From Clostridia bacterium (GTDB lineage: Bacteria; Bacillota; Clostridia; Oscillospirales; Acutalibacteraceae), in contig JAFYVN010000010.1 of assembly GCA_017549105.1 (NCBI GenBank), positions 81,261 to 142,168 on the forward strand: DNA of 60,908 bases. The letters are read 5' to 3'. The first letter of the stretch is position 1; the number at the start of each line of letters is the position of its first letter. This document shows, piece after piece, positions 37,928 to 52,991 of the stretch. The translations under genes were made by a program, and so were the position numbers. Under the pieces are notes generated by a model. That model worked only from the letters and a program-made list of their open reading frames with translations. It did not search any database and was not told where the DNA came from.

Positions 37928-37961
37928 ATGCAAGCACAAAAAATTAAACGGAGGAAAAGTT

Positions 37962-38390
37962 ATGTCTACTTATATGCCTAAAGCGGGCGACATCACCCGT
38001 AAGTGGTATGTGATCGATGCAGCAGGTAAGCCCATGGGTAAGGTTGCTGTTGAAGCTGCAAGACTTCTTCGCGGCAAGCATAAGCCCATCTTCACACCTC
38101 ACGCAGACTGCGGCGATCATGTAATCATCATCAACGCTGAGAAAGCAGTTCTCACAGGCAACAAACTCGACCAGAAGATGTACTATCATCACACAGGCTA
38201 CATCGGTCATCTCAAAGAGGTTAAGTACAGCACTCTTATGAAGACAAGATCCGATTTCGCTATGACACTTGCTGTTAAGGGTATGGTTCCCGATACAGTT
38301 ATCGGCCGTAAGGCTCTCACCAGACTTCGCGTATTTAAGGGCGCAGAACACACACATGCTGCTCAGAAGCCCGAAGCATGGGAATTTTAA
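37962..38390 (+). CDS. rplM: Ribosomal protein L13
   Basis: 142 residues, component of the large ribosomal subunit. Starts at ATG 37962 after GGAGGAAAAG. Family features: RKWYVIDAAGKPMG, HKPIFTPHADCGDHVI and VKGMVPDTVIGRKALTRLRVFKG. The longer in-frame reading frame from 37899 overlaps the promoter and is not used. It is co-transcribed with rpsI, 19 nt downstream. Confidence 0.98.
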   Translation: MSTYMPKAGDITRKWYVIDAAGKPMGKVAVEAARLLRGKHKPIFTPHADCGDHVIIINAEKAVLTGNKLDQKMYYHHTGYIGHLKEVKYSTLMKTRSDFAMTLAVKGMVPDTVIGRKALTRLRVFKGAEHTHAAQKPEAWEF

Positions 38391-38409
38391 GAAAGGGAGG
38401 CAATAAATA

Positions 38410-38808
38410 ATGTACGAGACAAATCCTTATTTCTATGGTACAGGCCGTAGAAAGAGCTCAGTTGCCAGAGTACGCGTTTATGCAGGTACAGGCAAGATTA
38501 TAATCAACGACAGAGAGATCGACGATTATTTCGGTCTTGAAACACTCAAGCTCATCGTTCGTCAGCCTCTCGCTCTTACAGACACAGCTGAGAAGTTTGA
38601 CATCATCTGCCGTGTAGGTGGCGGCGGTGTAACAGGCCAGGCAGGTGCTATCCGTCACGGTATCGCACGTGCACTTCTTCAGTACGACGAAAATCTTCGT
38701 CCCGCCCTCAAGAAGGCAGGTTTCCTTACCAGAGACCCCAGAATGAAGGAAAGAAAGAAGTACGGTCTCAAAGGCGCACGTCGTGCACCCCAGTTCTCAA
38801 AGAGATAA
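38410..38808 (+). CDS. rpsI: Ribosomal protein S9; 3' end is the integration site
   Basis: 132 residues, component of the small ribosomal subunit, with the conserved [13 protein letters not shown] start and the C-terminal basic tail ending in FSKR that reaches the P-site tRNA. The last codons and the following terminator are duplicated at 52867-52935, marking the insertion site of a mobile element. The reading frame here remains complete, so the element left the protein intact. Confidence 0.98.
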
Positions 38809-38862
38809 TTTTTCCCGAATGGGAATTATCGAAAACCCTTGGAATCTCAACGGTTCCAAGGG
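38792..38862. mobile_element. attL: left junction repeat of the integrative element
   Basis: This 71-bp stretch matches 52867-52935 with only a few differences. It starts with a 20-bp identical block covering the end of rpsI and its stop codon (38792-38811), and continues through the conserved CCCGAATGGG and ATTATCGAAAACCCTTGGAATC to the terminator stem. The integrase gene lies nearby at 39526. Confidence 0.85.
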
Positions 38863-38875
38863 CTATTTTCTTTTT
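38833..38875 (+). terminator. Terminator of rplM-rpsI (left copy)
   Basis: AACCCTTGGAA pairs with TTCCAAGGG, followed by a TATTTTCTTTTT stretch. It is duplicated, with a changed loop, at the right end of the element. Confidence 0.85.
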
Positions 38876-38894
38876 AAGAATAATCCTAAAATCC

Positions 38895-38915
38895 AAAATG
38901 TCAATATTTTGTCAA
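38895..38915 (+). repeat. Candidate integrase arm-type site, left copy
   Basis: AAAATGTCAATATTTTGTCAA, identical in sequence and orientation to 52680-52700. Inside it TGTCAA occurs twice with an 11-bp period, the spacing known for arm sites of Tn916-type integrases. Confidence 0.6.
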
Positions 38916-38920
38916 TAATT

Positions 38921-38960
38921 AAAAAAAAACACAGGAAAACAATCTGTTTCCTGTGTTTAC
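38921..38960 (-). terminator. Leftward terminator at the element left end
   Basis: AACACAGGAAA pairs with TTTCCTGTGTT; on the minus strand the stem is followed by a run of nine T. It ends the leftward rep-xis-int-unknown transcript before it reaches rpsI. Confidence 0.75.
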
Positions 38961-38978
38961 GCATTTCTAAAATAAATG

Positions 38979-39060
38979 TCCCCTTCCGGTCCGCAGTTCA
39001 CACCGAAGTGTGCCTAAGCGTAAGGGGCTCTGTCATATATATTATATACAGAGTCTGATG
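38979..39060. other. Structured non-coding stretch near the left end
   Basis: CCCCTT and AAGGGG enclose an inner CACAC-CGAA-GTGTG hairpin (about 38980-39028), followed at once by a second hairpin of CTCTGT facing ACAGAG (about 39029-39054). No gene is visible. It may be a recombination or transfer site, or the end of a small RNA; undetermined. Confidence 0.35.
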
Positions 39061-39099
39061 ACAAAAGTCAATAGCTTTTTATTGTGTTACATAAAATGA

Positions 39100-39480
39100 T
39101 TACATTATAAATGTTTCAACCATATCTTTTGTTAATTCTGCAGAACTCCAAAAATCAATCAAACGTAACGTTTCTTTATTGGATAAGCGAATTTCTATTC
39201 TTTTGGAGTTTTTGTTTGTTTTGATTTTCTTCTCATCTATTTTTTTGCGCAACATGGTATTTACAGCGTCAAAAAACCATTCGCCTATGTTGTCTTCGTT
39301 CTTTTCTGACTCATCCGTAATAATGTAGTAGAACACAAGATGATCGCTTTTGCATAAATCGCCGTTTTCATCAGTTGATTCATAATATCCTGCACTATAT
39401 ACATGCAGATTATTGTTTGGATAACCTAATTCTCGGAGAGTTGTTGCTGCTGCGATTCTATGGGGTGTAAGTATAGTCAT
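39100..39480 (-). CDS. Unknown 126-residue protein, downstream of integrase
   Basis: No recognised domain. Mixed alpha/beta with charged C-terminal half (KKIDEKKIKTNKNSKR). It begins 45 nt after the integrase stop on the same strand and follows a well-placed AAAGGAA site, so it is probably transcribed with int. A role in integration is possible from position only. Confidence 0.65.
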   Translation of the reverse strand: MTILTPHRIAAATTLRELGYPNNNLHVYSAGYYESTDENGDLCKSDHLVFYYIITDESEKNEDNIGEWFFDAVNTMLRKKIDEKKIKTNKNSKRIEIRLSNKETLRLIDFWSSAELTKDMVETFIM

Positions 39481-39525
39481 AATATAAATTCCTTTCGTTT
39501 TTAGATTTTGTTGTTTGATTGTTGA

Positions 39526-40752
39526 TTATCCGTTCCACACAAGTGAAGCGAATTTTTCGTTTGCGGCCTGCTGTGCATCTTTGTTGCTGTGGCAATATAA
39601 CGAAAGCGTAATTTCGATCGATCTGTGACCCAATTTTGTAGATACGGTTTTGATGTCTGCGCCGCTTTGTATCATAATCGTTGCCATTGTATGTCTGAAC
39701 TTATGAGGATGACAATCTTCAATGCCGTACTTCTCACCGAATTTTCTAAGATACGCAGTAGGAGCCTGAGGGTTTATTCTTTTGCCGTCAAGGTGTGTGA
39801 AGATATGTTTTGGTGTCGGTAAATTCTGCCCCTCAACAACCTCTTTCTGGAGTGTTTTCCATTTTTTCAGAATTTCTATAACCTGAGGGTTCGCATAAAC
39901 GTCTCTTTCTTTTTTGCTTTTTGTGTTTGTGTCGTAGACCCCCTTGCCTTCCGTGTACTGTGCATTGTTCACGATATGAATTCTGCCGCTTGCGAAATCA
40001 ATATCCGCCCATCTAAGACCGCAGGCTTCTCCGCGACGCATTCCTGTATCGGCAAGAAGATAAATCATTGCCTGCCACATCGAAGGCTCTTTTTCTGAGC
40101 AGAGCAGAATCTTTTTCAACTCTTCCACAGAAAATGTCTCAACCTTTTCCTCGCCCTCGTTATCAACAGGCTTCTCGATATTTTTCATCGGATTTGATGC
40201 AATCAGATTTTGCTTTACGCACCACGTGAGAAACGCAGACAGAGTTGCATAATGCTTTCTGACTGTAGAAATCCTGAGTTCACAGTCATACGAAAGAAAA
40301 TCAATATAAGCCTGACAATTGTCCTCGCTAATATCTTCAAGCTTCTTATTTCCGAACATCGTCAGAGCTCGTTTCATCGTGGTTCTGATGCCGGTAATGG
40401 TGTTAATCTTCTTTTTTCTGGTTTTGCTGATATATAATTCAAAGGCATCGAAAAAAATAATTTTTCCGGCTTCTTTTTTTGCCTGCAATCTGGCTATTTC
40501 CAGCTTCTCAGCTTTAATTTCTTCTTTTGTTTTGACTTCGCCTCTGTCGCAAGCAACCTGAAAATTAGCTTTTGCAATATCAAGCTCTTTTTGCTGACGC
40601 TTTTTAGCCCACTTATCCCAGTCTTCGGGCAGTTTCCAAACTGTGGAATAGGGAGTAATTTGCTTACCGTTAGCATCATAGCCTCTGGATACCTTTATTC
40701 TGTATCCTGTTAATTCTTTATCCTTATTATACACAGGTGTTGCACTTGCCAT
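39526..40752 (-). CDS. int: Tyrosine integrase (Tn916/phage family)
   Basis: 408 residues from ATG at 40752, preceded by AAAGGA. It has an N-terminal arm-binding region (about 1-60), a SAM-like core-binding domain (about 115-205) and a catalytic domain with Arg239 in DTGMRRGEACGLRW, HPHKFRHTMAT, LGHRS and the nucleophile Tyr386 in SLYCHS. It should recombine the attL/attR repeats at rpsI. It follows the xis-like gene and is transcribed leftwards, away from the cargo. Confidence 0.95.
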   Translation of the reverse strand: MASATPVYNKDKELTGYRIKVSRGYDANGKQITPYSTVWKLPEDWDKWAKKRQQKELDIAKANFQVACDRGEVKTKEEIKAEKLEIARLQAKKEAGKIIFFDAFELYISKTRKKKINTITGIRTTMKRALTMFGNKKLEDISEDNCQAYIDFLSYDCELRISTVRKHYATLSAFLTWCVKQNLIASNPMKNIEKPVDNEGEEKVETFSVEELKKILLCSEKEPSMWQAMIYLLADTGMRRGEACGLRWADIDFASGRIHIVNNAQYTEGKGVYDTNTKSKKERDVYANPQVIEILKKWKTLQKEVVEGQNLPTPKHIFTHLDGKRINPQAPTAYLRKFGEKYGIEDCHPHKFRHTMATIMIQSGADIKTVSTKLGHRSIEITLSLYCHSNKDAQQAANEKFASLVWNG

Positions 40753-40837
40753 TGTTTTTTCATCCTTTCGGTTTTTATTGATTTGCCTGCCCCTCCTGTG
40801 CAGAAGGGGCAGATGATATTGATTTTGACACAACATC

Positions 40838-41023
40838 TTATGCTGCTGTGTTTTCGTGAGCTTCGAAATACTCCATCATCTTGGGGTAGTTGATGAGATA
40901 CTTCATACCGGACTTGTGATAGCTGATTTCATTTGCCTTAGCAAGGTCTCGTATGTAATGAGCGCTCATACCGCTCGCCTTTGCTGCATCGTTGATTGAC
41001 ATATATGTAGGTGTAGTTTTCAT
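40838..41023 (-). CDS. xis: Excisionase-like helix-turn-helix protein
   Basis: 61 residues: MSINDAAKASGMSAHYIRDLAKANEISYHKSG is a winged-helix of the excisionase/MerR type, the size of known directionality factors. It lies 86 nt upstream of the int start, both leftwards. It probably bends DNA and controls excision. Confidence 0.85.
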   Translation of the reverse strand: MKTTPTYMSINDAAKASGMSAHYIRDLAKANEISYHKSGMKYLINYPKMMEYFEAHENTAA

Positions 41024-41113
41024 AATTAATAATTCCTTTCGTTATACAAAAATATTTATAAAAAATTGTGTCGGTTGCCTATAGTACAGTTTTACTCGCC
41101 TTTTTGTAAAAAA

Positions 41114-42469
41114 CTAAATCCTTCTATGGTAGAGAGGAGGTCTTACAATAACACTCTTAACTGTAGAGAAACGATAATCGGGATATGTTGGTCTTGCCTT
41201 CTTCTTACCGTTATAATCGGAACATCTGCAGTTGATAATCTCTGTTGCTTTGTTTGTGAAACCGGAATGTGGATTGTACTTAACAAACGAAGCATCAAGC
41301 TTCTTAATCGGTACATCTGGTTTATCGAGAACAACAAGCTCTGAAGGTTCAACGATTTCATCCGCTTCAGTAGTTGCAGCAACTGTTTCGTCTTCGATAT
41401 ATTCGAAATCTGAACGGTGACAAACATTATCTATGAAGCTTATTCTGTAATTCAGCTTTGTGTAGAGAATGCTTATCTCTGCATCCTGTGCAAGATTAAG
41501 GCAAGCATTGTAGATGACACGGTTACCCTTCTGAGAATGAAACGAGTGACAGCCTTCTTCGTTTATCTGCATCATATTTGCAAGAAGGTGGTCAAGCTTA
41601 TACTTCAGATATGAAGGCTTCTCGCCTTTGGGGTTTGTACTGTATTCAGCCTTTTTGGCGTTGTAGCAATCGGTTATTAGCTTTTCATATTCATTCTCTG
41701 GAACGAAATCGTAAATCAGATTCCGAGAGGTAAGAAGATAAGCGAAACGGTTGTTGGCTTTCTTGAACATCTTTTCAACACTGCCGAACACCTTGCCGTC
41801 ATAAGCACTGAACGGCTCCTTGCATCTCATTTCAAGCCTCAGTGTGTTTTTTATTTTATTTTGGTCTTCTTTCGCTTTATCCTGCTCTTTCGCTTTATCA
41901 TAAAGAACGATATCTAATTTCTTCGAAGTAAAGCAGTAACCGTCAATGTCATAATCATAGGTCTTGCTGCCTGAACGACCGGGCTTCAAATATTTAAAGT
42001 ACATATTCCGGAACAGTCGGCAGAATTCTTCCTGTTCTTCTATACCGTTGATGCAAAATGAAAAGCTGTGGTCGATTCTCCTTACATCAAAAACATCAAA
42101 ATAAATCGGGTTCGCCGCAAGGTCAACGTTGATGTTGTAGCAGGTTAAAATATCCTTGGCTTCATAGTTCAGAATATTGCTGTCCTTATACAGAAAACCG
42201 GTTGTGTTATCGCCATAAAGGACCTTCGGAACCGAAAACTCGATAAATACATTGTCGTAGGGCTTGTCCTTCAGCTTCTTGTAAATGAACTTTGCGGTCG
42301 CATTGAGAAAAGGTATATCACCTAAGTAATGGTATTTGCGTTTGTTATCCCAAAGCCATGTTCCTTTGACAGGAAGAATTTCTTCCGCTGGGTGGCAAGC
42401 TTTGATTGTGTCGACAAAAACCTCTTTCGGAAAAGGCTGTTTCAACTCTTTGATAAACTCTTTGTTCAT
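41114..42469 (-). CDS. rep: Phage/plasmid replication protein, gene II/X-like
   Basis: 451 residues from ATG at 42469, preceded by AGGAGA. Features match the gene II/X family that starts rolling-circle replication in filamentous phages and related plasmids: VDTIKACHP near the start, FIEFSVPKVLYGDN, KKLDIVLYDKAKEQ and LRLEMRCKE. The identification rests on this motif pattern and is moderate. The ~110 C-terminal residues are unlike the core. Presence in a chromosomal element suggests the excised circle can replicate. A 9-bp perfect palindrome lies 30 nt upstream. Confidence 0.7.
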   Translation of the reverse strand: MNKEFIKELKQPFPKEVFVDTIKACHPAEEILPVKGTWLWDNKRKYHYLGDIPFLNATAKFIYKKLKDKPYDNVFIEFSVPKVLYGDNTTGFLYKDSNILNYEAKDILTCYNINVDLAANPIYFDVFDVRRIDHSFSFCINGIEEQEEFCRLFRNMYFKYLKPGRSGSKTYDYDIDGYCFTSKKLDIVLYDKAKEQDKAKEDQNKIKNTLRLEMRCKEPFSAYDGKVFGSVEKMFKKANNRFAYLLTSRNLIYDFVPENEYEKLITDCYNAKKAEYSTNPKGEKPSYLKYKLDHLLANMMQINEEGCHSFHSQKGNRVIYNACLNLAQDAEISILYTKLNYRISFIDNVCHRSDFEYIEDETVAATTEADEIVEPSELVVLDKPDVPIKKLDASFVKYNPHSGFTNKATEIINCRCSDYNGKKKARPTYPDYRFSTVKSVIVRPPLYHRRI

Positions 42470-42497
42470 GACATGTCTCCTTCTGCGTTTTTGAGTG

Positions 42498-42518
42498 TCT
42501 TGTGCACTTTGCACAAGA
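42498..42518. promoter_or_regulatory. Perfect palindrome upstream of rep
   Basis: TCTTGTGCA-CTT-TGCACAAGA, 9-bp arms around 3 nt, 29 nt upstream of the rep ATG. It may be an operator for rep or part of a replication origin hairpin. Confidence 0.5.
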
Positions 42519-42715
42519 AGTATGTACGAAACGCTTTTTAATTCGTGTTTCTGAACAAGATTTTTTTTAAAAAACGACAAAAAGTTGACATGTTTTGTTA
42601 AGAAATTACCAAAAACAGGAAAAATCTTTGTGGATAACGAACAAGGTTTTACGAAGCTTAAGTAGGTTTTGTTGGTCAGATTTCATGAAAAAATAAATTT
42701 TTCAAGCTAAAAAAT

Positions 42716-42745
42716 AATGCCCCGCAAATACCTTGCGGAGCACCA
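42716..42745 (-). terminator. Terminator of the CAP operon
   Basis: TGCcCCGCAA pairs with TTGCGGaGCA; on the minus strand it is followed by TTATTTTTTAG. It lies about 100 nt after the CAP-gene stop. Confidence 0.75.
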
Positions 42746-42843
42746 TTCTGTTTGTATGAGCATAAAGATGGTAATTAATTAAATAAATCATCTATAATAC
42801 CGTTGCAAGCATCAGCGGAATGCCTACAAACGGTTATTTTTTT

Positions 42844-43389
42844 CTACCTTGCAAATAATTGGACTGCATAAAAATATCCTTCATCGGATTCTAAAACGCA
42901 TATTCCTGAATAAGTCCACTCTCCCAAAAGAATTTTTTTATGAGTTTCTGAGGATAACCAGAGACTTAACGCATATGACGGCGAGAAGGTCTTTTGAGAA
43001 CGTATGATGACGATATTCTCGCCGTAAGCATCATAAACCATACCGTTTTCTTCAAAGACAGTATAGAATCTTGAAGAATCGGGTCTCAGGTGACCTTGGG
43101 CAACAAGCTGTTCACAGACCCGTATATAAGAAAGCTGCGAGATTTCACAGCTGTGCACAAGCTTGTCCAATCCTACGTCCTCTCTCGCCCGATTACAGAG
43201 TTCGAAAAGTTCGACTGCATCTTTGCTGTGAACATTGCCGGAAGAGCTCACAGAGCATTCTGTTGAAGAACAGACGGGCTCTGCGGTTGTGATTTCGTCA
43301 AAAGGTATTGAGATAACATCTTTCTTTTCCGAAACAAAGGACATAAGCATTAAGATTATTGAAATAAGAATTGATAAAACCTTTTTGAT
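42844..43389 (-). CDS. Secreted CAP-domain protein with possible ATC start codon
   Basis: About 181 residues. A CAP/SCP domain follows a signal peptide; visible CAP pieces are NRAREDVGLDKL, the GENIVII strand with the conserved Glu and a C-terminal YFYAVQLFAR strand. The first in-frame ATG (43350) lies in the middle of the hydrophobic signal, but the frame stays open upstream, giving KKVLSILISIILMLMSF after an ATC codon at 43387-43389 that is 7 nt past a perfect GGAGG. Either ATC starts translation or the start codon was lost. The gap to the upstream gene is 2 nt. Confidence 0.75.
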   Translation of the reverse strand: MKKVLSILISIILMLMSFVSEKKDVISIPFDEITTAEPVCSSTECSVSSSGNVHSKDAVELFELCNRAREDVGLDKLVHSCEISQLSYIRVCEQLVAQGHLRPDSSRFYTVFEENGMVYDAYGENIVIIRSQKTFSPSYALSLWLSSETHKKILLGEWTYSGICVLESDEGYFYAVQLFAR

Positions 43390-43391
43390 AT

Positions 43392-43826
43392 CTATTCCTC
43401 CTCTGCATAATCAAAATCAAAAATAAGTTTGCCGTCATAATCAATATACACGTGAGCTAAAATCTTGGTTTCACATGATTGATCGATAAAGAGCAGAAGG
43501 GCATCTGTAATGATACCTTCCCCATATTCTGGGTTTTGCAGAATCAGCATTCTGTTGTCGTATCCGCCGAAGACCTCGATGTGCGTGTCATCGATTGACA
43601 AACTGCCTTTGAATTTAGTTTCAGGATCTTCGATGAGCCTTGCAACAAATTTGCTTTGACCGTCCGTTTCGCAAAACAGCAATCCCGATTGTTCTGAATC
43701 CGAGATTGATCCGACTACGAATTTCACACCGTCTTTAAATCTGAAGAAGCGTATTTCGTTATCTTCGGGCAAAGCGTGAGCGAAGTAACAAGCCGTGTGG
43801 TTCATCATAAACATATTTTTCAACAT
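43392..43826 (-). CDS. Unknown acidic protein, CAP operon
   Basis: 144 residues, beta-rich and acidic, ending FDYAEEE. It starts 7 nt after GGAGG. No recognised motif. Its end contains the ribosome binding site of the CAP gene, so the two are tightly coupled. Possibly works with the CAP protein at the surface or in the cell; undetermined. Confidence 0.65.
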   Translation of the reverse strand: MLKNMFMMNHTACYFAHALPEDNEIRFFRFKDGVKFVVGSISDSEQSGLLFCETDGQSKFVARLIEDPETKFKGSLSIDDTHIEVFGGYDNRMLILQNPEYGEGIITDALLLFIDQSCETKILAHVYIDYDGKLIFDFDYAEEE

Positions 43827-43838
43827 TCCGGATCCTCC

Positions 43839-44279
43839 TTATGCAAACTCTATCATCATCATGCCGTCCTTGACATAGCAGCGAATGAAAAGTCGGGTTG
43901 ATTTTCCGTCAAAAAATCCGACCGTAATACCGTCAGACCTGATATCCTGATAATAGTCATTTCTGAATATGAAAATTTTTCCGTTGGGCATCCGAACTTC
44001 CGTCTGATCATCGTATGCACCGGGTTCGATTATGTATCGTCCACCGTCGTATGTCCATTTTTCTTCCGGCGGATATTCTTTCTTCTTCAGATCAAAACCA
44101 TCTTCGGTTCGCTTGAAAAAGAGAAAATAGTTTTCGGAATCAAGAATGGAAGCTATGGGCTTTTGGGAATGGCAGGTATCACAGAAAAAATCTAACGAAT
44201 TATGACCTTTGCCGGATAACTTGATTGAAAATGTGGCTTTTTCGCCTTTGGTTGAAACAGTAATTGCTTTGGTTAACAT
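43839..44279 (-). CDS. Unknown protein with a CxxC pair, first gene of CAP operon
   Basis: 146 residues, beta-rich, with FFCDTCH near residue 32 as the only distinct motif (could bind a metal, or be redox active). Followed after 12 nt by the acidic unknown protein. Starts after GGAGGAAT. Not recognised; the three-gene set seems to be specific cargo of the element. Confidence 0.65.
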   Translation of the reverse strand: MLTKAITVSTKGEKATFSIKLSGKGHNSLDFFCDTCHSQKPIASILDSENYFLFFKRTEDGFDLKKKEYPPEEKWTYDGGRYIIEPGAYDDQTEVRMPNGKIFIFRNDYYQDIRSDGITVGFFDGKSTRLFIRCYVKDGMMMIEFA

Positions 44280-45033
44280 TGTGTTATTCCTCCTGATATT
44301 TGAATTTAAATTTTTACAAATCGTACTACGACATTTTTCGTTTAGTACAAGTTACGAAAACTTCCCTGTCTTGCCCCGCTGAAAAACAAGACAGGGAATT
44401 GCTGTTGTTCCCGATGCAGATGTTTATGACATAAAATGATATACAAGGCGTCGGAGATCTGCTTTTGGGAGTGTTTAATCTAACAGTCAATAGGAGGTAG
44501 ACGAATCAGACAAACATAGACAACAGCTTATTGCATCTCAACAGCGTCAAGGGACCGCTGTTGCTACGCTAAATTTTTTGATAAACAAAATACAGCACTG
44601 CGGGTGATATATGAGACGTATTGGATTGTGCTGCTCGCTTTTACAGGTTTGAGCGGTCGCTCAGATCGGTGTTATAGTACAAACCACCGTCCTTCGCAAC
44701 AAGGTCTTCAACTCAAAAATATTCCTCCTCTTACATTCAGTTTGTAGATGATACAATTCGATAAAAAGGCAAGGTTATTACTTATCATCCGAGAAATCTC
44801 CCTTGACGATTTCTCAGATAAAACTCCTGTTGCCTCGTCGGTATCATATAAAGTATGTAAGATTGACATTGCTTGTACGAATCATGTTTGGGAATGATTT
44901 AAAAATTCGTTGATACTAAAGGAGTTATATAGGATATATTTAAAAAAGCACAAAATTATAAATCTACAGAATTTATTTTTATTGTTGTGTTTTGAGGAGA
45001 ATGATGATATAATCAAAGCGAAGAAGGTGACTT
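44280..45033. other. 754-bp hairpin-rich non-coding region of the element
   Basis: No gene of useful length. Several strong inverted repeats are present: a perfect 12-bp stem TTCCCTGTCTTG / CAAGACAGGGAA at 44362-44398, CAACAGCG / CGCTGTTG at about 44539-44563, TGAGCG-GT-CGCTCA near 44649-44662, and a nested structure at 44768-44834 (GGCAAGG / CCTgTTGCC enclosing GAGAAAT / ATTTCTC). It could hold an RNA gene or a replication origin for the rep protein. Confidence 0.55.
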
Positions 45034-45684
45034 ATGAATCATCAGGATAAACTAACAAATAAAAACTTCCCCAACGGGTTTGCGACAACTGCCGAACTGA
45101 AATCTGCAGGTATCAGCGGATACTGTATCAATCAGCTTTGTCAAAACGGCGATATTGTCAGAATCAAACACGGACTGTATAAAATAAAAACCTTGAAGAT
45201 AAGCGACAAGCGAGATGTTATTCTTGCCGCTGTTCCTCAAGGTGTGTTTTGCATGAGTGAAGCATTATTTATTCACGGCTTCAGAAAGAGAAAACCGTAT
45301 AAACACGAAATTGCTGTTCCGAGAGGTTTGGTTCACTCGAACAGCAGGTTTATAAAAGACATTGACTTGCAGATTTACTATGTTAAACCCGAACATTTTG
45401 AAATCGGAAAGACTGTTTCGGCAGACGGATTGCCTTGCTATGACCTTGAACGCACAATTTGCGACTATTTCAAAAATCACACACGTATCAGTTGGCGCAG
45501 ACTGCGAGATCTTTCAAAGGCATACCGTCGCTATGACGGTAAAGACATAGGCAAATTAAAATCCTATGCAAAAAAACTTAATCTCTCCGTTGCTGCTTTG
45601 CAGAAAATGGATTGGATGATATTTAAGCATTTTGAAGAAAAGAAGAAACAGAAAAAGCGTAAAAAGAGAAGAACCCGCAGCTGA
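45034..45684 (+). CDS. AbiEi-like antitoxin/transcriptional regulator domain protein
   Basis: 216 residues. The N-terminal winged-helix (FATTAELKSAGISGYCINQLCQNGD, then IVRIKHGLYKI) and the following VPQGVFCMSEALFIHGF segment match the AbiEi antitoxin of type IV toxin-antitoxin systems. The C-terminus is strongly basic. No AbiEii nucleotidyltransferase toxin follows; a terminator does, then the Fic gene. It may be an orphan regulator. It starts after GAAGGTG. Confidence 0.8.
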   Translation: MNHQDKLTNKNFPNGFATTAELKSAGISGYCINQLCQNGDIVRIKHGLYKIKTLKISDKRDVILAAVPQGVFCMSEALFIHGFRKRKPYKHEIAVPRGLVHSNSRFIKDIDLQIYYVKPEHFEIGKTVSADGLPCYDLERTICDYFKNHTRISWRRLRDLSKAYRRYDGKDIGKLKSYAKKLNLSVAALQKMDWMIFKHFEEKKKQKKRKKRRTRS

Positions 45685-45703
45685 TTCGGCTGCGGGTTTG
45701 CTA
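45670..45703 (+). terminator. Terminator after the AbiEi-like gene
   Basis: CCCGCAGC pairs with GCTGCGGG, followed by TTTGCT. It overlaps the last codon. Confidence 0.75.
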
Positions 45704-45762
45704 TATTTCCTATAAATCACTATGTTTGGGGAAATATCTTTTTGATTATTTAAAAATAGTTA

Positions 45763-45799
45763 TTGATATCCTTCCTGAAACGTGATAAACTTATCATGT
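45763..45799 (+). promoter_or_regulatory. Fic-gene promoter overlapped by a palindromic operator
   Basis: TTGATA at 45763-45768 and TAAACT at 45786-45791, 17 nt apart. The -10 is inside the palindrome ACGTGATAA-AC-TTATCATGT (45780-45799), 9-base arms with one mismatch. Binding here would block RNA polymerase, which suggests autoregulation by the HTH-Fic protein. Confidence 0.65.
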
Positions 45800-45828
45800 A
45801 TTATCGTATCCGAACGGAGGTACACTCT

Positions 45829-46734
45829 ATGAACTATATAAAAGCGTCTCAGGCGGCGGAAAAATGGGGCATTTCCCCCAGAAGAGTCCGTATGCTCTGT
45901 GCAGAAGGAAAGATAGAAGGTGCTGTTCAGAAAGGCAAGCTCTATATGATTCCTGAAAACGCACAGAAACCTGCTGACGGCAGAGTTAAATATAACATCT
46001 TCGCAGATATCGAAGCTAAAAAGGCTCGTCTTTCAGAGATGAGACCGCTTACCGCAGGTGAGGTTGAACGCCTTCGTGAAGAGTTTATGATTGAGTTCAC
46101 CTACAACTCCAATGCTATCGAGGGAAACACTCTCACGCTTAAAGAAACAGCAATGGCTCTTGAGGGCATGACAATCGACCAGAAGCCTCTCAAAGACCAT
46201 CTCGAAGCCGTAGGACACAGAGATGCGTTCCTTTATGTGCAGGATATTGCAACAAAGGATATGCCCATCAGCGAGAGCGTAATCAAAAACATTCATTCCC
46301 TTGTTCTCATCAACAAACCCGAAGACAAGGGCGTTTACCGCAGAATTCCCGTTCGAATTATGGGAGCTTATACAGAGCCTCTTCAGCCGTATATGGTTCA
46401 GCCTGCGATGGAAGGACTTCTGATTAAAGACAAAAATCGTGCCGAAACGATGAATATCATCGAGCGTATTGCCCGTTTCCACCTTGAATTTGAGGGCATA
46501 CACCCCTTTATCGACGGCAACGGCAGAACAGGCAGACTTGTTCTAAACCTCGACCTCATCCGCAACGGCTATCCGCCTATAAACGTCAAATTCACAGACA
46601 GAAAGCGTTATTACGAAGCCTTCGATGCCTATTACCGTGATAACGATGCAACAAAAATGACCGCCCTCATCGCAGAATATGTCAACGAAAGACTGGATGA
46701 GTATTTGGCGATTTTAGAAAACAGCCTTGTTTAA
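45829..46734 (+). CDS. HTH-Fic protein (AMPylase family, class II inhibitory helix)
   Basis: 301 residues from ATG at 45829, 7 nt after CGGAGGT. The N-terminal ~45 residues are a DNA-binding helix-turn-helix (KASQAAEKWGISPRRVRMLC). The Fic domain follows: an inhibitory helix motif S-x-x-x-E98-G (SNAIEGN), then HPFIDGNGRTGR with catalytic His225. Fic enzymes usually attach AMP to target hydroxyls and are restrained by the Glu of the inhibitory helix. The HTH and the palindrome on its promoter suggest an autoregulated toxin-antitoxin-like unit in one protein. Confidence 0.92.
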   Translation: MNYIKASQAAEKWGISPRRVRMLCAEGKIEGAVQKGKLYMIPENAQKPADGRVKYNIFADIEAKKARLSEMRPLTAGEVERLREEFMIEFTYNSNAIEGNTLTLKETAMALEGMTIDQKPLKDHLEAVGHRDAFLYVQDIATKDMPISESVIKNIHSLVLINKPEDKGVYRRIPVRIMGAYTEPLQPYMVQPAMEGLLIKDKNRAETMNIIERIARFHLEFEGIHPFIDGNGRTGRLVLNLDLIRNGYPPINVKFTDRKRYYEAFDAYYRDNDATKMTALIAEYVNERLDEYLAILENSLV

Positions 46735-46873
46735 ATTAATTTGATAATTGTAAAAGATTTTTGCAATAGAATCGTACAAATTATATTTTGTGCTAATCTA
46801 TTGCATTTTTTGTTTTTTTATGATAGAGTAGTAAAGTAGTTAGCTTACTTATGTACTTTTGGGAGGTGATGGA

Positions 46874-47200
46874 GTGGCAAAAAAAGAATATGCAGAAGGA
46901 AGTTTCGGTGCATACTTCGTGAAGCTCATTAAAGACCATGATTATTCACAAGCGAAATTTGCTTCGGACTTGGGCGTGTCTAAAACATATCTGTTTGATG
47001 TGTTCAACGGACGAGTTAAACCACCCACTCCCGATATGCAAGACCGCATTATTGAGCTTTTACGCCTGACTGACGATGAAAAGAATGATTTTTACAGTAA
47101 GGCGGCTGATGGGCGGCATGAGCTACCCAAGGATATTGTCGAGTATCTTACAAATAATCAAACTGAGATTGATTGTCTCAGAGAAAGAATGAGGGCGTAA
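46874..47200 (+). CDS. Helix-turn-helix protein, first gene of the restriction-modification operon
   Basis: 108 residues from GTG at 46874, 7 nt after GGGAGG. XRE-type helix-turn-helix (YSQAKFASDLGVSKTYLFDVFNGR). It stops 2 nt before the restriction-modification gene, so it is co-translated. An inverted repeat AAGTA-N7-TACTT at 46834-46850 upstream could be its operator. It may act like the controller (C) proteins of restriction-modification systems. Confidence 0.8.
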   Translation: MAKKEYAEGSFGAYFVKLIKDHDYSQAKFASDLGVSKTYLFDVFNGRVKPPTPDMQDRIIELLRLTDDEKNDFYSKAADGRHELPKDIVEYLTNNQTEIDCLRERMRA

Positions 47201-47202
47201 TT

Positions 47203-49053
47203 ATGGCAAATGAAGCAAAAACCTATGCTATTTTCCGAGATATGCTGAGAAGCAAAGGTTATTATGATGATAAAGATGTTGTAGTAGAAGAACAAAAAAG
47301 TGATAACGCTAAAATTGACAAGCTGTTAAAGAATGCGTCTAAAAAGGGAAACAAGAACGGATATCCCGACTTTATTCTGTATTCAAAAGCCTATCCCGAA
47401 CTGATTATTGTAGTTGAGGCTAAGGCTGACATTAACAAACACGAAAGTGAAACGCGGGACAACTACGCCGATTATGCGGTTGACGGTGCTTTGTTGTATG
47501 CTTCTTTCTTGTCAAAAGAGTTTGATGTTCTTGCTATAGGTATTAGTGGTGAGGAAGAACACCGCTTTAAGATGTCCCATTATCTTCATTTGAAAGAAGA
47601 CAAAAAGGCATATCCTCTTTTTGATGATATCCTCTTGACCGTAAAAGAGTATTTTGACGGCATCAATCAGAGTAACTACAAGTTTAATCAAGATTACGCA
47701 AAATTGATTGCCTATACAAAAACTCTGAACGAGACACTTCATGCAAAGAAAATCAAGGAGTCTCAGCGTGCTTTGCTCATAAGTGGCATTTTGATTGCGT
47801 TAAAAGATAGGGCGTTTAAGGACGGATATAAGAAACATGAGAAAGTAACACAGCTTGTTAAGGCTCTCTATACCGCTATAGATGGTCAGCTATCAAGCGG
47901 CGATATTCCTCAGAAGAAAATAGATGTCTTAACACAGGCGTTTGGCTTTGTTAAGACAAACCCAGCATTGACCGATGCGAAAACTGGAAAGAAGTTCCTT
48001 GAAGACCTTATTGATGAAATTGACCGAGAGATAAATGGTTTCATGGTCACACATCAGTATGTAGATACAGTTAGCCAGTTCTACATAGAGTTTTTAAGAT
48101 ACGCCAATAACGACAAAGGACTTGGTATTGTATTAACTCCGCCGCATATTACGGATTTGTTCGCAGAATTGGCTGGAGTTGATAAAAACAGCGTAGTACT
48201 CGATAACTGTTGCGGTACAGGAGGCTTCTTGATTAGTGCTATGAAGCGTATGCTTATTGATGCTAAAGGAGACCAAGCTAAAGAAAAAGATATCAAGGGG
48301 AAACAGTTAATCGGCATCGAATTTCAAGATGATATTTATACGCTCCTTATTTCCAATATGATTATTCATCGTGATGGCAGAACCAACATTTATTGGGGAG
48401 ACTGTTTTAAGGAAATAGAAGATGTTAAAAAGAATTTCAAACCAACAGTCGGTCTTCTGAATCCTCCGTATAAAACCAAATCGGCAGACATAGAAGAATT
48501 TGAATTCATTCTTAATAATCTTGCTGCGCTTGAACCTGGTGGAACGTGTATTGCCATTATTCCTATAAGTTGTGTAATCGAGAAAACAGATGTTGCCGAA
48601 AATTTGAGAAAACGTCTTTTGGAAAAACACACCCTTGAAGCAGTTCTTTCGATGCCAGAAGAATTGTTTCATAATTCAAAAGTGAATACGGTTACCTGTG
48701 CTGTAATTATTACAGCACATAAGCCTCATCCTAAGGGAAAGAAGACTTGGTTCGCATATTGTCGTGACGATGGCTTTGTAAAACTGAAAAATAAAGGTCG
48801 TATTGATGCAAACCATACTTGGGATAGCATTCGCAACAAATGGGTAACGGCATATAGAAACCGCGAAATAATTGAGAACTTTAGCTTGATGAAAGAAGTT
48901 ACAGCAAAAGACGAATGGTGTTCAGAAGCTTATTTTGAAACATCATATGATGACTTTTCAATAGAAGACTATTCCGAAACAGTTAAAAACTACATTTTGT
49001 TCTCCATGAGAATGCAAAATTCACAACTTGAAGAAACTGAGGAGGAAGAATAA
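47203..49053 (+). CDS. BcgI-A-like fused nuclease/DNA methyltransferase, type IIB system
   Basis: 616 residues. The N-terminal ~150 residues carry a PD-(D/E)xK nuclease site: Pro55-Asp56 in GYPDFIL and Glu72-Ala-Lys74 in VVEAKAD. A helical linker (about 160-290) is followed by an N6-adenine methyltransferase with AdoMet motif LDNCCGTGGF (Asp334) and NPPY (Asn420). Size (about 70 kDa) and domain order fit the A subunit of BcgI, which cuts on both sides of its site. It starts 2 nt after the HTH stop and ends 1 nt before the specificity gene. HsdR is absent, consistent with a one-protein nuclease-methylase. Confidence 0.85.
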   Translation: MANEAKTYAIFRDMLRSKGYYDDKDVVVEEQKSDNAKIDKLLKNASKKGNKNGYPDFILYSKAYPELIIVVEAKADINKHESETRDNYADYAVDGALLYASFLSKEFDVLAIGISGEEEHRFKMSHYLHLKEDKKAYPLFDDILLTVKEYFDGINQSNYKFNQDYAKLIAYTKTLNETLHAKKIKESQRALLISGILIALKDRAFKDGYKKHEKVTQLVKALYTAIDGQLSSGDIPQKKIDVLTQAFGFVKTNPALTDAKTGKKFLEDLIDEIDREINGFMVTHQYVDTVSQFYIEFLRYANNDKGLGIVLTPPHITDLFAELAGVDKNSVVLDNCCGTGGFLISAMKRMLIDAKGDQAKEKDIKGKQLIGIEFQDDIYTLLISNMIIHRDGRTNIYWGDCFKEIEDVKKNFKPTVGLLNPPYKTKSADIEEFEFILNNLAALEPGGTCIAIIPISCVIEKTDVAENLRKRLLEKHTLEAVLSMPEELFHNSKVNTVTCAVIITAHKPHPKGKKTWFAYCRDDGFVKLKNKGRIDANHTWDSIRNKWVTAYRNREIIENFSLMKEVTAKDEWCSEAYFETSYDDFSIEDYSETVKNYILFSMRMQNSQLEETEEEE

Positions 49054-49054
49054 T

Positions 49055-50059
49055 ATGAAGATAGTCCCATTAACTGATTTGTTTTTGCCAGTTGTAGGAA
49101 TTGCTTCTTCTCAGGTTTCCAGGCATCCTAAAGGTAACGAATATGATGTTCCATACATTAGACCATCAAAAACACAAAACGGAAGTATTGATGATTATGT
49201 AGATAAGCGATTTATTCCCGATGAAAAAATATTTCCAGCAAATACACTATACGTATCGACAGACGGACAAGGTAGCCATACATATTCATATGTTTCTGTA
49301 TTTGAATTCGTTCCTAATAGCAATGTTACTGTTTTAATTCCCAAAAGGGAAATGAGCTTAGAAGAAAAACTGTATTATGCTCATTGTATTACACAAAACA
49401 GATATAAGTTTTCATATGGTAGAAAACCCAAAGGGAAGCGTTTAGAGGCAATTCAAATACCTGAGAGTATGCCTGATTGTATTGTTAATGGTTTTATAAG
49501 AAACAAGAGCGAAGAACTTATAAAAACAACAGAGTTTCCTGTTGATACATCTTCGTATCCTAACAGCAAGAAAACTGTACCACTTGACCAACTCTTTTAT
49601 GTGGAAAATGGTGTCGCTTCATCCCAAGTTTTTCGAAGTATGACCAAAGAAAACGCAAATTGGATTCCATATATAAGGCCATCATATAAACAGGAAACAA
49701 GCATTGACGCTTATGTAAATAAAAACCTTGTTTCTTCTGATAAAGTGTTTCCCGCAGGAAGTTTATATGTTTCTACTAATGGTCAAGGTAGCCACACATT
49801 CTCATATGTATCAACAACTGAATTTGTGCCTAATAGTGATGTGTCGGTTCTTATTCCTAAAAGAAAAATGAGTTTGCAGGAAAAACTATTTTATGCTCAA
49901 TGTATCACAAATAATAGGTATAAATTCTCGTATGGTAGAAAGCCGAAAGGAGCACGTTTAAAAGCAATACAGCTTCCTGAATATCCTCCTAAATATGTTA
50001 CAGATTATACTATCGATAAAGTGGTGGATAGTTTTTCTAAAGTTTTAGATATAGTGTGA
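49055..50059 (+). CDS. BcgI-B-like specificity subunit with two near-duplicate TRDs
   Basis: 334 residues, close to the ~39 kDa B subunit of BcgI. ATG at 49055 is 1 nt after the nuclease-methylase stop; GGAGG lies 9 nt upstream. The two halves (about 1-150 and 170-334) align end to end at about two thirds identity by eye, each with ASSQV, PYIRPS, LYVST.GQGSHT, EFVPNS and the identical NRYKFSYGRKPKG. Each half is expected to read half a split recognition site. The halves are so similar that the half-sites may be the same. Confidence 0.85.
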   Translation: MKIVPLTDLFLPVVGIASSQVSRHPKGNEYDVPYIRPSKTQNGSIDDYVDKRFIPDEKIFPANTLYVSTDGQGSHTYSYVSVFEFVPNSNVTVLIPKREMSLEEKLYYAHCITQNRYKFSYGRKPKGKRLEAIQIPESMPDCIVNGFIRNKSEELIKTTEFPVDTSSYPNSKKTVPLDQLFYVENGVASSQVFRSMTKENANWIPYIRPSYKQETSIDAYVNKNLVSSDKVFPAGSLYVSTNGQGSHTFSYVSTTEFVPNSDVSVLIPKRKMSLQEKLFYAQCITNNRYKFSYGRKPKGARLKAIQLPEYPPKYVTDYTIDKVVDSFSKVLDIV

Positions 50060-50113
50060 GTTAGATGAATGACAATTTACATAATATTTAAACCGATTTA
50101 TGGTTGAGAACAT

Positions 50114-50140
50114 AAAAGCCCGTCTTTGCGACGGGCTTTT
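50114..50140 (+). terminator. Terminator of the restriction-modification operon
   Basis: AAAAGCCCGTC-TTTGC-GACGGGCTTTT, a perfect 11-bp stem with a T run, about 55 nt after the specificity-gene stop. The following sequence has a direct repeat of TTGTGCGCTA.AG near 50138 and 50178. Confidence 0.85.
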
Positions 50141-50263
50141 GTGCGCTACAGAGGCCATATTGCTTAATTCGCGTTAAAGATTGTGCGCTATAGAACGTGA
50201 CGTGGCGGGCAGATATCTGTTAAAATAGTTATACAGAAAACGAAGTGGCGGAAAGAGGTTTTT

Positions 50264-50530
50264 ATGGCTGGGTTCATTGAAGATTTTTATTACGGCAATG
50301 TGGAAACACAGAATTGCACACCCGAATTCGGAAATGAGCTTAAGAAAAAACTTGGTGCTTTGACCGCGCTTGAAAAACAGCTTTCCGACAGACTGACGGG
50401 CGAAGAAAAAGAATTGTTTCTGAGCTATGTAGAAAAATACAATGAGTTTAACTCACTCTCTGTTGCAGACAGTTTTATAAATGCTTTTCGAATTTCTTCA
50501 AAATTCACTTATGATATGTTTGTCCGATAA
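50264..50530 (+). CDS. Small helical protein, DUF6809-like
   Basis: 88 residues, alpha-helical, with ALEKQLSDRLTGEEKELFLSYVEKYNEFNSL resembling the small Firmicutes family I recall as DUF6809, of unknown function and often found on mobile elements. It starts 11 nt after AAAGAGG. The family name is given with low certainty. Confidence 0.65.
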   Translation: MAGFIEDFYYGNVETQNCTPEFGNELKKKLGALTALEKQLSDRLTGEEKELFLSYVEKYNEFNSLSVADSFINAFRISSKFTYDMFVR

Positions 50531-50564
50531 CCTCCTCCTTTCGTTTTGAGGGTCATGACATAAA

Positions 50565-50593
50565 ATGCTCCACAGAAAATATCTGCGGAGCAT
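50565..50593. terminator. Terminator between the small helical protein and the nitroreductase remnant
   Basis: ATGCTCCaCAGA pairs with TCTGcGGAGCAT around a 5-nt loop. T-rich sequence follows on both strands only weakly. Confidence 0.6.
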
Positions 50594-50599
50594 TTGTGT

Positions 50600-51130
50600 T
50601 TATTTAATGAAATTGGTTTTGATTTTGTTTTCGGGGATATCACGCAGTTCGTATTTCTCATCTGTCTGACCGAGAATGATTGCACAGCAAGGAACCATTC
50701 CTTCGGGGAGGTTGAGTTCTTTCAGAAGCTCATCGTTATCGTTGAGGAATCTGACCGCACCCCAGATGTGGCAGGAGCCTATGCCGAGTTCGGTAGCGGC
50801 GATTGCCATATTCTGAACAAGAATTGCAGCGTTTGAGAAGTTCACGTTAACGCTTTTGAGGTCGGTTGAGGTAATAAGCGACGAAACAAGAATAACCGTC
50901 GGTGCGCCGTAGAAAGGTCTGTGACCGCTTTCGCTTTCGCAGTAGTCTTCCCACTTGTTCAGAAACTCACGGTTGCTGATAACCGTAATGTTCAGCGTGT
51001 CAAAAAGTGCTCTGCCGACAGGTGATGCGTAAGCTGCTTTGAGAATCAGATTGAGTTAGGATTCCGTTATGTTTTCGCCGTTATATGTACGAATTGATCT
51101 TCTGCTGAAAAGATTATCAAATGTATTCAT
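50600..51130 (-). pseudogene. Nitroreductase family, broken by an in-frame stop
   Basis: Reading leftward from ATG at 51130 gives a normal nitroreductase start (FDNLFSRRSIRTYN), then TAA at codon 25 (51056-51058), then an uninterrupted remainder in the same frame (LNLILKAAYASPVGRA, AAILVQNMAIAATELGIGSC, IILGQTDEKYELR) to 50600. A CAA to TAA change would explain it. Ribosome binding site and length (176 codons) are otherwise intact, so the loss is recent. Confidence 0.85.
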
Positions 51131-51223
51131 AGCTTTTCTCCTTTATTTCTGTATAGGATAATTATAATTCTGCCGGAACCCGATGTCAACATTCGCGTTG
51201 CCTCATGTTTTTGCGTGTTTCTG

Positions 51224-51287
51224 GAATTATTCGCTCATCTTTTTGTGAATTTCGTGAATTATTCACTCGTTTTTTTGCAATTTCATT
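51224..51287. repeat. Imperfect 32-bp tandem repeat upstream of the ATPase gene
   Basis: Two copies begin with GAATTATTC (51224 and 51256); the second also makes the palindrome GTGAATTATTCAC. They lie just before the promoter of the ATPase gene, a plausible regulator-binding region. Confidence 0.45.
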
Positions 51288-51315
51288 GACTTTTCAGCCG
51301 AATTATGTGTATAAT
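51286..51315 (+). promoter_or_regulatory. Sigma-A promoter of the ATPase gene
   Basis: TTGACT at 51286-51291 and TATAAT at 51310-51315, 18 nt apart, about 30 nt before the start codon. Confidence 0.65.
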
Positions 51316-51346
51316 GTTACTGTAAATATCTTATTCGGAGGATAAT

Positions 51347-52681
51347 ATGGCTTATTTAAAACGAAAAGTTGACATTTTCCTTTCAGAATGGAAAAACAAT
51401 CCTGACAAAAAGCCGCTGATCATCAAAGGTCCACGACAGGTGGGAAAAACCGAGTCGATAAGAACTTTCGCAAAAGCAAATTATAAGAATCTGATTGAGA
51501 TTAACTTTGTTGAAGAACCTAAATATAAAATGATTATTTCAGACGGATACAAAGCCGACGACATTATCAAAAACATTTCTTTGCTTGATCCTTCAAAAAG
51601 ATTTGAGGAAGGCAATACCCTGCTTTTTTTTGACGAGTTGCAGGAATTTCCTGAAATCTCTACTGCCTTAAAGTTCTTTAAAATTGATGGCAGGTTTGAC
51701 GTTATATGCAGCGGTTCTATGCTTGGAATCAACTATCGCAAAATCGAAAGCAACAGTGTTGGCTACAAAACAGACTATGAAATGTATTCTCTTGATTTTG
51801 AGGAATTTTTATGGGCAAAGGGATATGGCGATGATTTCACCGAAAATCTGCTGAATCATATGAAAACCCTGACACCATTCAATGAGCTTGAGCTCAGTGT
51901 GTGCAATTCTCTGTTTCTGGATTTCAGTATTCTCGGCGGTATGCCTGCAGTTGTCAGAGAATACATTGCTAAAGGCACGTTTGAAGGCTCTCTTGATGTT
52001 CAACGTCAGCTCATAGCCGACTATAAAGAAGATATCCGAAAATATGCCGAAGGAATGGATCAGACACGAATTCTGAACGTGTTCAATCAGATTCCGCCTC
52101 AGCTTGCAAAGGATAACAAGAAGTTTCAGATTTCCAAGGTTGCATCCGGTGCCAGATTCAAAGACTACAGAGGTTGCATTGAATGGCTTTGCGATGCAGG
52201 TATGATTAACATCTGCTATTGCCTGAACTTCCCTGAACTGCCTCTCACCGGAAACTATGACGAAACAAAATATAAACTTTATTTCGGAGACACCGGGCTG
52301 CTTGTTGCAATGCTTGATGAAGAGGCTCAGGATGATTTGCGTGCTAACAAAAATCTCGGAGTCTATAAGGGTGCATTATACGAAAATATGGTTTCTGAAG
52401 CATTCAAAAAGAGCGGCCTGAACTTGTATTATTATAAGCGTGAGGACTCAACCCTTGAAGAAGACTTCTTCGTCAGAACTGCAGATGAGCTTATTCCTGT
52501 TGAGGTTAAAGCGGCAAACGGGAAATCAAAGTCCTTGCGTACACTTATCGAAAGTGACAAATACACGGATATCCGAAGCGGCATCAAGCTGACCGGCGGG
52601 AACATAGGCTTCTCGGATAGAATCACAACCTTTCCCTATTTCTGTACTTTTCTGATGAAACGTTATTTGAAAGGGAAATAA
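51347..52681 (+). CDS. AAA ATPase with DUF4143 (AAA_14)
   Basis: 444 residues: Walker A GPRQVGKT (about 27-34), Walker B LLFFDELQEF, then a C-terminal DUF4143 region containing a nuclease-like VEVKAANGKS segment. The family is widespread in bacteria and archaea, in many copies per genome, and has no settled function; links to mobile elements and conflict systems are suspected. It is the last gene of the element, 185 bp before attR. Confidence 0.92.
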   Translation: MAYLKRKVDIFLSEWKNNPDKKPLIIKGPRQVGKTESIRTFAKANYKNLIEINFVEEPKYKMIISDGYKADDIIKNISLLDPSKRFEEGNTLLFFDELQEFPEISTALKFFKIDGRFDVICSGSMLGINYRKIESNSVGYKTDYEMYSLDFEEFLWAKGYGDDFTENLLNHMKTLTPFNELELSVCNSLFLDFSILGGMPAVVREYIAKGTFEGSLDVQRQLIADYKEDIRKYAEGMDQTRILNVFNQIPPQLAKDNKKFQISKVASGARFKDYRGCIEWLCDAGMINICYCLNFPELPLTGNYDETKYKLYFGDTGLLVAMLDEEAQDDLRANKNLGVYKGALYENMVSEAFKKSGLNLYYYKREDSTLEEDFFVRTADELIPVEVKAANGKSKSLRTLIESDKYTDIRSGIKLTGGNIGFSDRITTFPYFCTFLMKRYLKGK

Positions 52682-52700
52682 AATGTCAATATTTTGTCAA
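52680..52700 (+). repeat. Candidate integrase arm-type site, right copy
   Basis: Identical to 38895-38915, in the same orientation, with TGTCAA repeated at an 11-bp period. It overlaps the stop codon region of the ATPase gene. Confidence 0.6.
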
Positions 52701-52866
52701 CAAGTCAGGATATTGGAACTTTTTCTGGGTCGGTTACAAACTGCGGCAAGTTACGGCAAATGTCTTTTTATTGATTTTTTGCCCGTTTGTCAACGTCAAT
52801 CTGAGCAAAATGGAAGATTAGAGCAAGTTATGACAAGCAAAAACAAGATAATCTAATTACATTCAA

Positions 52867-52935
52867 GTTCTCAAAGAGATAATTTATCCCGAATGGGGAT
52901 TATCGAAAACCCTTGGAATCAACCGATTCCAAGGG
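52867..52935. mobile_element. attR: right junction repeat of the integrative element
   Basis: A second copy of the rpsI tail and terminator, starting with the 20-bp identical block 52867-52886. No rpsI body precedes it, which shows it is a junction and not a gene. The terminator stem is kept with a different loop. Confidence 0.85.
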
Positions 52936-52945
52936 TTCTTTTTTG

Positions 52946-52980
52946 CTAAAAGCTCCGCAGATTTTTCTGCGGAGCTTTCA
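52946..52980 (-). terminator. Terminator of the GxGYxYP-type gene
   Basis: AAAGCTCCGCAG pairs with CTGCGGAGCTTT. On the minus strand it is followed by TTTTAGC, just after the stop codon. Confidence 0.8.
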
Positions 52981-52991
52981 AATTTTGTTTT

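Follow-up and report, generated by a model that had tools for sequence, protein, structure and literature searches.

A putative integrative mobilizable element at the 3′ end of rpsI in an uncultured gut Clostridia genus

Why does the end of a ribosomal protein gene occur a second time, 14 kb downstream of the gene, without the rest of it? The question is raised by a 60,908-nucleotide stretch of DNA from a Clostridia bacterium of the Acutalibacteraceae (hereafter the window; positions 81,261 to 142,168 of contig JAFYVN010000010.1, GenBank assembly GCA_017549105.1), which comes from a metagenome-assembled genome (MAG) of 1.24 Mb in 12 contigs, 63.9% complete. A first-pass annotation of its sequence had proposed a mobile island that uses the 3′ end of rpsI as its attachment site. 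In our comparative tests, which were mostly favourable, this proposal held through an uninserted site in a relative, the fidelity of the integrase group to rpsI and the mosaic make-up of the island. We consider it very likely that the repeat delimits a 14,074-bp site-specific integrative element, and most likely an integrative mobilizable element (IME), its mobilizable status being putative. At the level of sequence, the comparison supports its boundaries, target specificity, uninserted site, conserved ends and cargo turnover.

The target gene, rpsI (ribosomal protein S9; 38410..38808, + strand), ends inside a 20-bp attachment (att) core, AGTTCTCAAAGAGATAATTT, which consists of its final codons, the stop codon and a few further bases. 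The core lies at 38792..38811 and recurs exactly at 52866..52885 (both + strand), 14,074 bp from core to core, and no third site occurs in the window at up to four mismatches. With the adjoining terminator, 65 of 73 aligned columns agree between the two copies, and the longest word common to both ends is 22 bp, whereas 500 random pairs of the same size taken from the window share no word longer than 12 bp. There is no rpsI upstream of the right copy. The recurrence of the rpsI tail and terminator without the rest of the gene had thus been read correctly at first pass, with only the start of the right copy misplaced, at 52867 instead of 52866. A second exact repeat, 21 bp long (AAAATGTCAATATTTTGTCAA), is found just inside each end, at 38895..38915, where it is conserved in congeners, and at 52680..52700 (both + strand); a 19-bp part of it has only these two sites in the window at up to three mismatches. 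Both copies are probably integrase arm-type sites. The G+C content of the element is 38.8%, against 42.5% and 41.7% in the flanks. rpsI itself gives a single match in its own genome and was found in 31 of the 36 other genus genomes searched, with 85-100% identity in full-length matches. A tRNA was rejected as the integration target, as the window contains none, and Rfam gave no match at the gathering threshold in 37500-54000.

Both terminator copies fold into terminator-like hairpins, with z = -4.2 for the left one (38812..38875, + strand) and z = -5.0 for the right one (52886..52950, + strand). The left terminator runs unbroken into the arm at rpsI in nine genomes, the window included, and in a diverged form in G020 (G numbers denote the genus and other genomes searched, G000 being the window's own, with C for contig and L for locus). 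In G032, where a different insert comes first, the same terminator and arm begin about 6.9 kb behind rpsI, at an internal att site. All five genomes that have both ends (the window, G011, G020, G027 and G033, the last two with the ends on separate contigs) show a loop difference between left and right terminators, and the integrase-bearing elements of the MAGs SIG575 and SIG594 carry a different terminator type. The first three of these observations agree with a crossover in the 20-bp core, which places the left terminator in the element, and the excised circle should therefore join 52865, the core and 38812. The junction proposed at first pass, 52866 to 38863, is about 50 bp off, since the left terminator belongs to the element. 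The right hairpin would be the chromosome's own rpsI terminator, displaced by the insertion; we read it in this way because two genes farther downstream are shared with an uninserted rpsI locus, G002:C31.

Searches for the ends covered 45 genus genomes, the window's own included. The left end was present in 11 of them (G000, G002, G006, G008, G011, G020, G023, G027, G032, G033 and G036; that of G020 diverged, at 79%), and the right end with core and terminator in seven (G000, G011, G064, G033, G020, G027 and G031). A single contig holds both ends in the window, G011 and G020, and of these three an integrase was found in the window only. G002:C31 carries rpsI, a terminator and one beta-glucosidase-like gene (named by eye) without any insert, and then the window's two right-flank genes (54765-55409 and 55519-57237; 92.5% and 81% amino acid identity, respectively). 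G064 has the same two right-flank genes about 2.5 kb beyond its right end. Looking for the empty site in relatives, as had been advised at first pass, thus yielded a locus with the same downstream genes and one different intervening gene; no base-for-base empty site was found, because the GxGYxYP gene that adjoins the element on the right in the window has the same position in G020.

The end searches also returned sites of other kinds. A right arm with a partial core (12 or 18 of 20 bases) precedes non-rpsI sequence in G017:C18 (L159:16433-16618) and G002:C66 (L160:4033-4225), where it may represent secondary sites, remnants or contamination; G067:C9 and G002:C35 each show no more than part of an arm. 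On G033:C3 (L164:13616-13922) a left-end-like terminator and a degenerate arm come immediately after a right end, an arrangement that could be either a tandem with the second element deleted or a circle-type junction. Away from rpsI, G008:C32:5761-5843 (L158) weakly matches a portion of the left terminator and arm, at 74%. Copies of the tail and terminator stand 1.4-3.5 kb behind rpsI in G018, G013, G021 and G010 (L076, L084, L078 and L083), with no integrase-like ORF noticed between them in the ORF list; these copies were excluded from the element counts.

Next to the left end, as the first-pass annotation had recognized, lie genes for a tyrosine integrase (39526..40836, - strand; Phage_integrase, E 2e-36) and an excisionase-like protein (40838..41023, - strand). 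The integrase frame is open and contains the core motifs TGMRRGE and HKFRH. The small protein matches HTH_17 (E 2.3e-6) and, weakly, PHROG excisionases; its counterpart in G032 is 98% identical over 57 aa, and it is probably an Xis-like excisionase. All ten integrases found at 62% identity or more are located at rpsI: those of the window, G032, G023, G036, G033, G008, G006 (a partial gene), G027 (whose rpsI contig stops within the integrase gene), SIG575 and SIG594 (a partial gene). More distant integrases in G078 (about 41%) and G025 (about 30%) are likewise at rpsI; for those of G172, G166, G187, G042 and G093, at 37% identity or less, no rpsI was seen in the 7.9-20 kb examined. In a tree of 20 integrases, 10 of them at rpsI, nine of the rpsI rows group together and G078 falls outside; G025, G147 and G117 have long branches, and the remaining rows, classed as other, were checked for rpsI over about 1.5 kb or less on each side. 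Among named database records with the integrase, nine of ten are Clostridia or Oscillospiraceae MAGs, six of them labelled as from the gut of goat, sheep or deer. The remaining one, a gammaproteobacterial MAG at 23% identity, was set aside, and seven records (L171-L176 and L179) were treated as duplicates of G genomes and counted once. Judged by these comparisons, the integrase group is faithful to the rpsI site.

Comparison of the loci further indicates that the element is built of a conserved left module, a variable middle and a conserved right module, and that elements trade parts with one another. For the left module (about 39526-44424), G036, G027 and G023 show 82-86% identity. G020 shares the right part, 50138-52944, at 96.2% identity over 2,807 bp, and G036, G023 and G011 share some of it, while for 44865-50138 the 14 loci compared gave one match only, in G011, to a stretch of the Fic gene. 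For the same pair of genomes, the window and G020, identity is 89.2% over 37914-38934 (mainly rplM-rpsI coding sequence and the left end) and 79.3% in the right-flank gene; the higher value in the right module therefore points to horizontal exchange. The same figures could be explained by an accretion of two elements, in which the left module arrived with its integrase and the right end, with its AAA_14 gene, stems from an older rpsI island; the nearest kin of the left module are indeed in other genomes, whereas G020, in which no integrase was found, supplies the right. Tandem arrangements do exist: in G032, SIG575 and SIG594 another insert lies between rpsI and the integrase-bearing element, and these look like tandem accretions. 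Yet no third core occurs within the 14 kb, and genes for a DUF6809 protein (50264..50530, + strand; conserved in the right module) and a nitroreductase-like protein (50600..51130, - strand) adjoin the right end in several elements, including those of G027 and G011, so that homologous recombination explains the likeness of the right module equally well. We therefore regard such an accretion as a possible but doubtful origin of the window's island.

Whether the element could still move is a separate matter. G011 (8.5 kb) and G020 (16.4 kb) hold islands with both att copies in which no integrase was found. They look like cis-mobilizable elements (CIMEs), described (PMC5704250) as elements that keep attL and attR after loss of their integration and transfer genes; the window's element differs from them in that it has retained its integrase. 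Such islands, together with the nitroreductase-like gene, whose frame is interrupted in the window (an 81-aa ORF only) and uninterrupted in G020 and G011 (176-aa ORFs), would suit a once-mobile island that is now fixed, its repeat a fossil and its defence genes kept by selection. The open integrase frame with its core motifs, and the exactness of both cores and both 21-bp repeats, make this unlikely for the window. Two further observations belong to these loci. The G011 island (L073) has AbiEi/AbiEii-like, adenine-methylase-like and ATP-binding ORFs (named by eye) between its att copies, and G017 has a 196-aa nitroreductase relative close to its uninserted rpsI.

If the element is mobile within a genome, is it also equipped for transfer? 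The replication protein noted at first pass is present, as a Phage_CRI-like replication initiator and possible relaxase (41114..42469, - strand; start codon chosen by hand in an ORF open from 42580). Seven of eight initiator homologs match Phage_CRI (PF05144) at an E limit of 10, the best with E 1.7e-7, and those of G032 and G002 exceed its cut-off in a genome search. Homologs were found in 9 of the 396 genomes searched, eight of them in this genus; the ninth, from a different genus within the family, matched weakly (E 2.2e-5). R131, D133, Y190, K192, R211 and E213 are kept in all eight alignment rows, forming RxD, YDK and RxE motifs. Rep_trans initiators are reported to have the motif order RxD, YxKxxE, RxE (PMC5714925), and Phage_CRI proteins to carry similar motifs (PMC5714925, PMC4797284). 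In the window's initiator group these three motifs stand in the same order as in the Rep_trans/MobT initiators of those accounts (PMC4797284, PMC5714925), the final E of YxKxxE being present in seven of eight rows; the window's Pfam match is to Phage_CRI instead of Rep_trans. A plain Rep_trans (PF02486) initiator was rejected, as the window's genome has no Pfam match to this family and the profile comparison was not significant. Among 14 control genomes both families match in Bacillus subtilis alone, with Phage_CRI below its cut-off there, and a search of solved structures gave no sequence match to the initiator. The replication protein resembles initiators of the Phage_CRI/Rep_trans type, to which relaxases belong as well, and this likeness is no more than suggestive.

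The 16 element ORFs scanned with Pfam include no mating-pore genes, as expected for an IME, and an integrative conjugative element (ICE) was rejected, since these ORFs contain no conjugation module. The first-pass annotation had concluded that the island lacks transfer genes. This stands for mating genes in the ORFs scanned, and is too sweeping as a general statement, as the initiator resembles a type used as relaxase in some elements. In streptococci, 129 of 144 IMEs are reported to encode non-canonical, initiator-type relaxases (PMC5357655), and because such relaxases prevail there, a lone initiator does not mean that transfer genes are absent. Two intergenic stretches inspected for an origin of transfer (oriT) yielded generic inverted repeats only.

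The combination of a tyrosine integrase, an Xis-like gene and a Phage_CRI-like initiator, distant integrase relatives in 2,264 of 50,697 phage records (all below 60% identity, the best of them 33% across 90% of the query) and the repressor-like and other phage-like ORFs (by eye) in the tandem insert ahead of the G032 element would fit an integrating phage satellite or filamentous-phage-like provirus with a G2P-type initiator, packaged by a helper phage; we rejected it as quite improbable, for the 16 ORFs include no capsid, terminase, coat or morphogenesis family in Pfam, scans of IMG/VR with a few short patterns gave no confirmed integrase or initiator relative, the initiator has no match in phages or plasmids, the two exact end patterns are absent from viral contigs, and the phage relatives of the integrase are distant only.

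Several observations count against an IME at this site and have to be set beside those above. The window's own initiator matches Phage_CRI with E 0.0037 and 17.4 bits, under the 21.7-bit cut-off, and its comparison by hhalign with two Rep_trans proteins gave a probability of 1.3%, which is not significant, though the region of YDK and RxE was aligned. Neither a coupling protein nor mating genes were found among the scanned ORFs, and a VirD4-type match is absent from the window's own, incomplete genome; such matches are present in 12 of 45 genus genomes and are a sign of a possible helper. A stop interrupts the integrase matches in G008 and G023. As for the empty site, G002 has two rpsI copies, C44 with a left end and C31 without, and 5% contamination, so that strains may be mixed in it; the gene directly behind rpsI in G002:C31 differs from the window's, which makes this empty site imperfect; and G017:C12, also without insert, has an altered core. 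Lastly, no excised form was seen of an element that is known from a single, incomplete MAG.

Taking both sides together, we propose a mechanism for an IME that exchanges the end of its target gene for a carried copy. The tyrosine integrase would recombine the 20-bp core of rpsI with the same core on the element circle, the 21-bp repeats binding integrase as arm sites and the HTH_17 protein acting as excisionase. The element would thereby bring the end codons of rpsI and a terminator copy beside its left arm, and rpsI would therefore still have its coding end and a terminator once the element is inserted, and the chromosome's own terminator would be pushed to the right end. After excision, the Phage_CRI-like initiator may nick the circle and replicate it by the rolling-circle mode, and might double as relaxase for a helper conjugation system. 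From the gene content we infer that the cargo, namely type IIG restriction-modification, AbiEi, Fic and AAA_14 genes, would serve defence and retention.

The dense defence and toxin-like cargo described at first pass is indeed there, and several of its genes are likely to serve anti-virus defence. An AbiEi-like antitoxin/regulator (45034..45684, + strand; AbiEi_4, and PADLOC AbiEi with E 3.9e-40) is followed by a Fic protein (45763..46734, + strand) with a domain match, HPFIDGNGRTGR and a SNAIEG motif. An HTH regulator (46859..47200, + strand; domain match) stands upstream of a fused type IIG restriction-methyltransferase (47173..49053, + strand; PADLOC PDLC03608, E 9.2e-191; PD...EAK and NPPY motifs) and its specificity subunit (49028..50059, + strand; PADLOC Specificity_II, E 1.8e-79). 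The two halves of the latter are 63% identical over 148 aa, a likeness that might correspond to a nearly symmetrical recognition site. PADLOC matches and motifs thus indicate a nuclease fused to a methylase, accompanied by a specificity subunit, an arrangement shared with type IIG enzymes that have a separate specificity subunit, which we take to be those called BcgI-like. The right end is occupied by an AAA_14/DUF4143 ATPase gene (51347..52681, + strand; PADLOC PDC-S01), 99% identical in G020.

All genes on the left side of the element, from a small ORF to two proteins without assigned function, run towards rpsI. The small ORF (39100..39480, - strand) has no Pfam, NCBIfam or PADLOC match at the limits used, and one weak PHROG match (E 0.033). 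Beyond the initiator are a CAP-domain protein (YkwD-like, by domain match; 42844..43350, - strand) and the two unassigned proteins (43392..43826 and 43839..44279, - strand), all three conserved in the left module; the last two were considered as paralogs and this was rejected, their similarity not being significant. G023, G008 and G033 have a near-identical 346-aa ORF between left end and integrase (L064, L063 and L066; about 1550-2590 with rpsI set to the + strand), and the window has no ORF of this size there.

These results extend rpsI-targeting elements from streptococci to an uncultured gut Clostridia genus. The exact ends, probable arm sites and empty-site comparison make excision directly testable, and the two conserved ends with a variable middle characterize a modular carrier of defence genes, which also occurs in the decayed and tandem forms to be expected of such elements. 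Should the initiator serve as a relaxase, another replication-initiator type would join the non-canonical relaxases. Tentatively, the element may belong to an undescribed family of mobilizable elements, found in our searches almost only in one gut Clostridia genus, with a relaxase of the filamentous-phage type (G2P/Phage_CRI-like), in which insertion swaps the rpsI end and terminator for carried copies and terminator types differ by element lineage. No title among those listed by literature searches, which did not use the names of these MAGs, describes this element.

Streptococcal IMEs and ICEs are well known to target the 3′ end of rpsI, and the accounts of the IMEs among them describe three integrase families, short and long repeat types and tandem accretion (PMC5357655, PMC4701971, PMC7168690, PMC5704250). 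With these streptococcal elements and islands (PMC5357655, PMC5704250, PMC7168690) the window's element and its relatives share a tyrosine integrase, the rpsI 3′ end, direct repeats and tandem accretion, as well as the restriction or toxin-antitoxin systems reported for some IMEs and, possibly, replication-initiator-like relaxases. They differ in their host, an uncultured gut Clostridia genus, in that no coupling protein was found, and in the initiator, which is Phage_CRI-like as opposed to MobT, MobV or Rep_2; the two groups are likened here by description. By this analogy, the element in the window appears to have the anatomy of the streptococcal rpsI elements.

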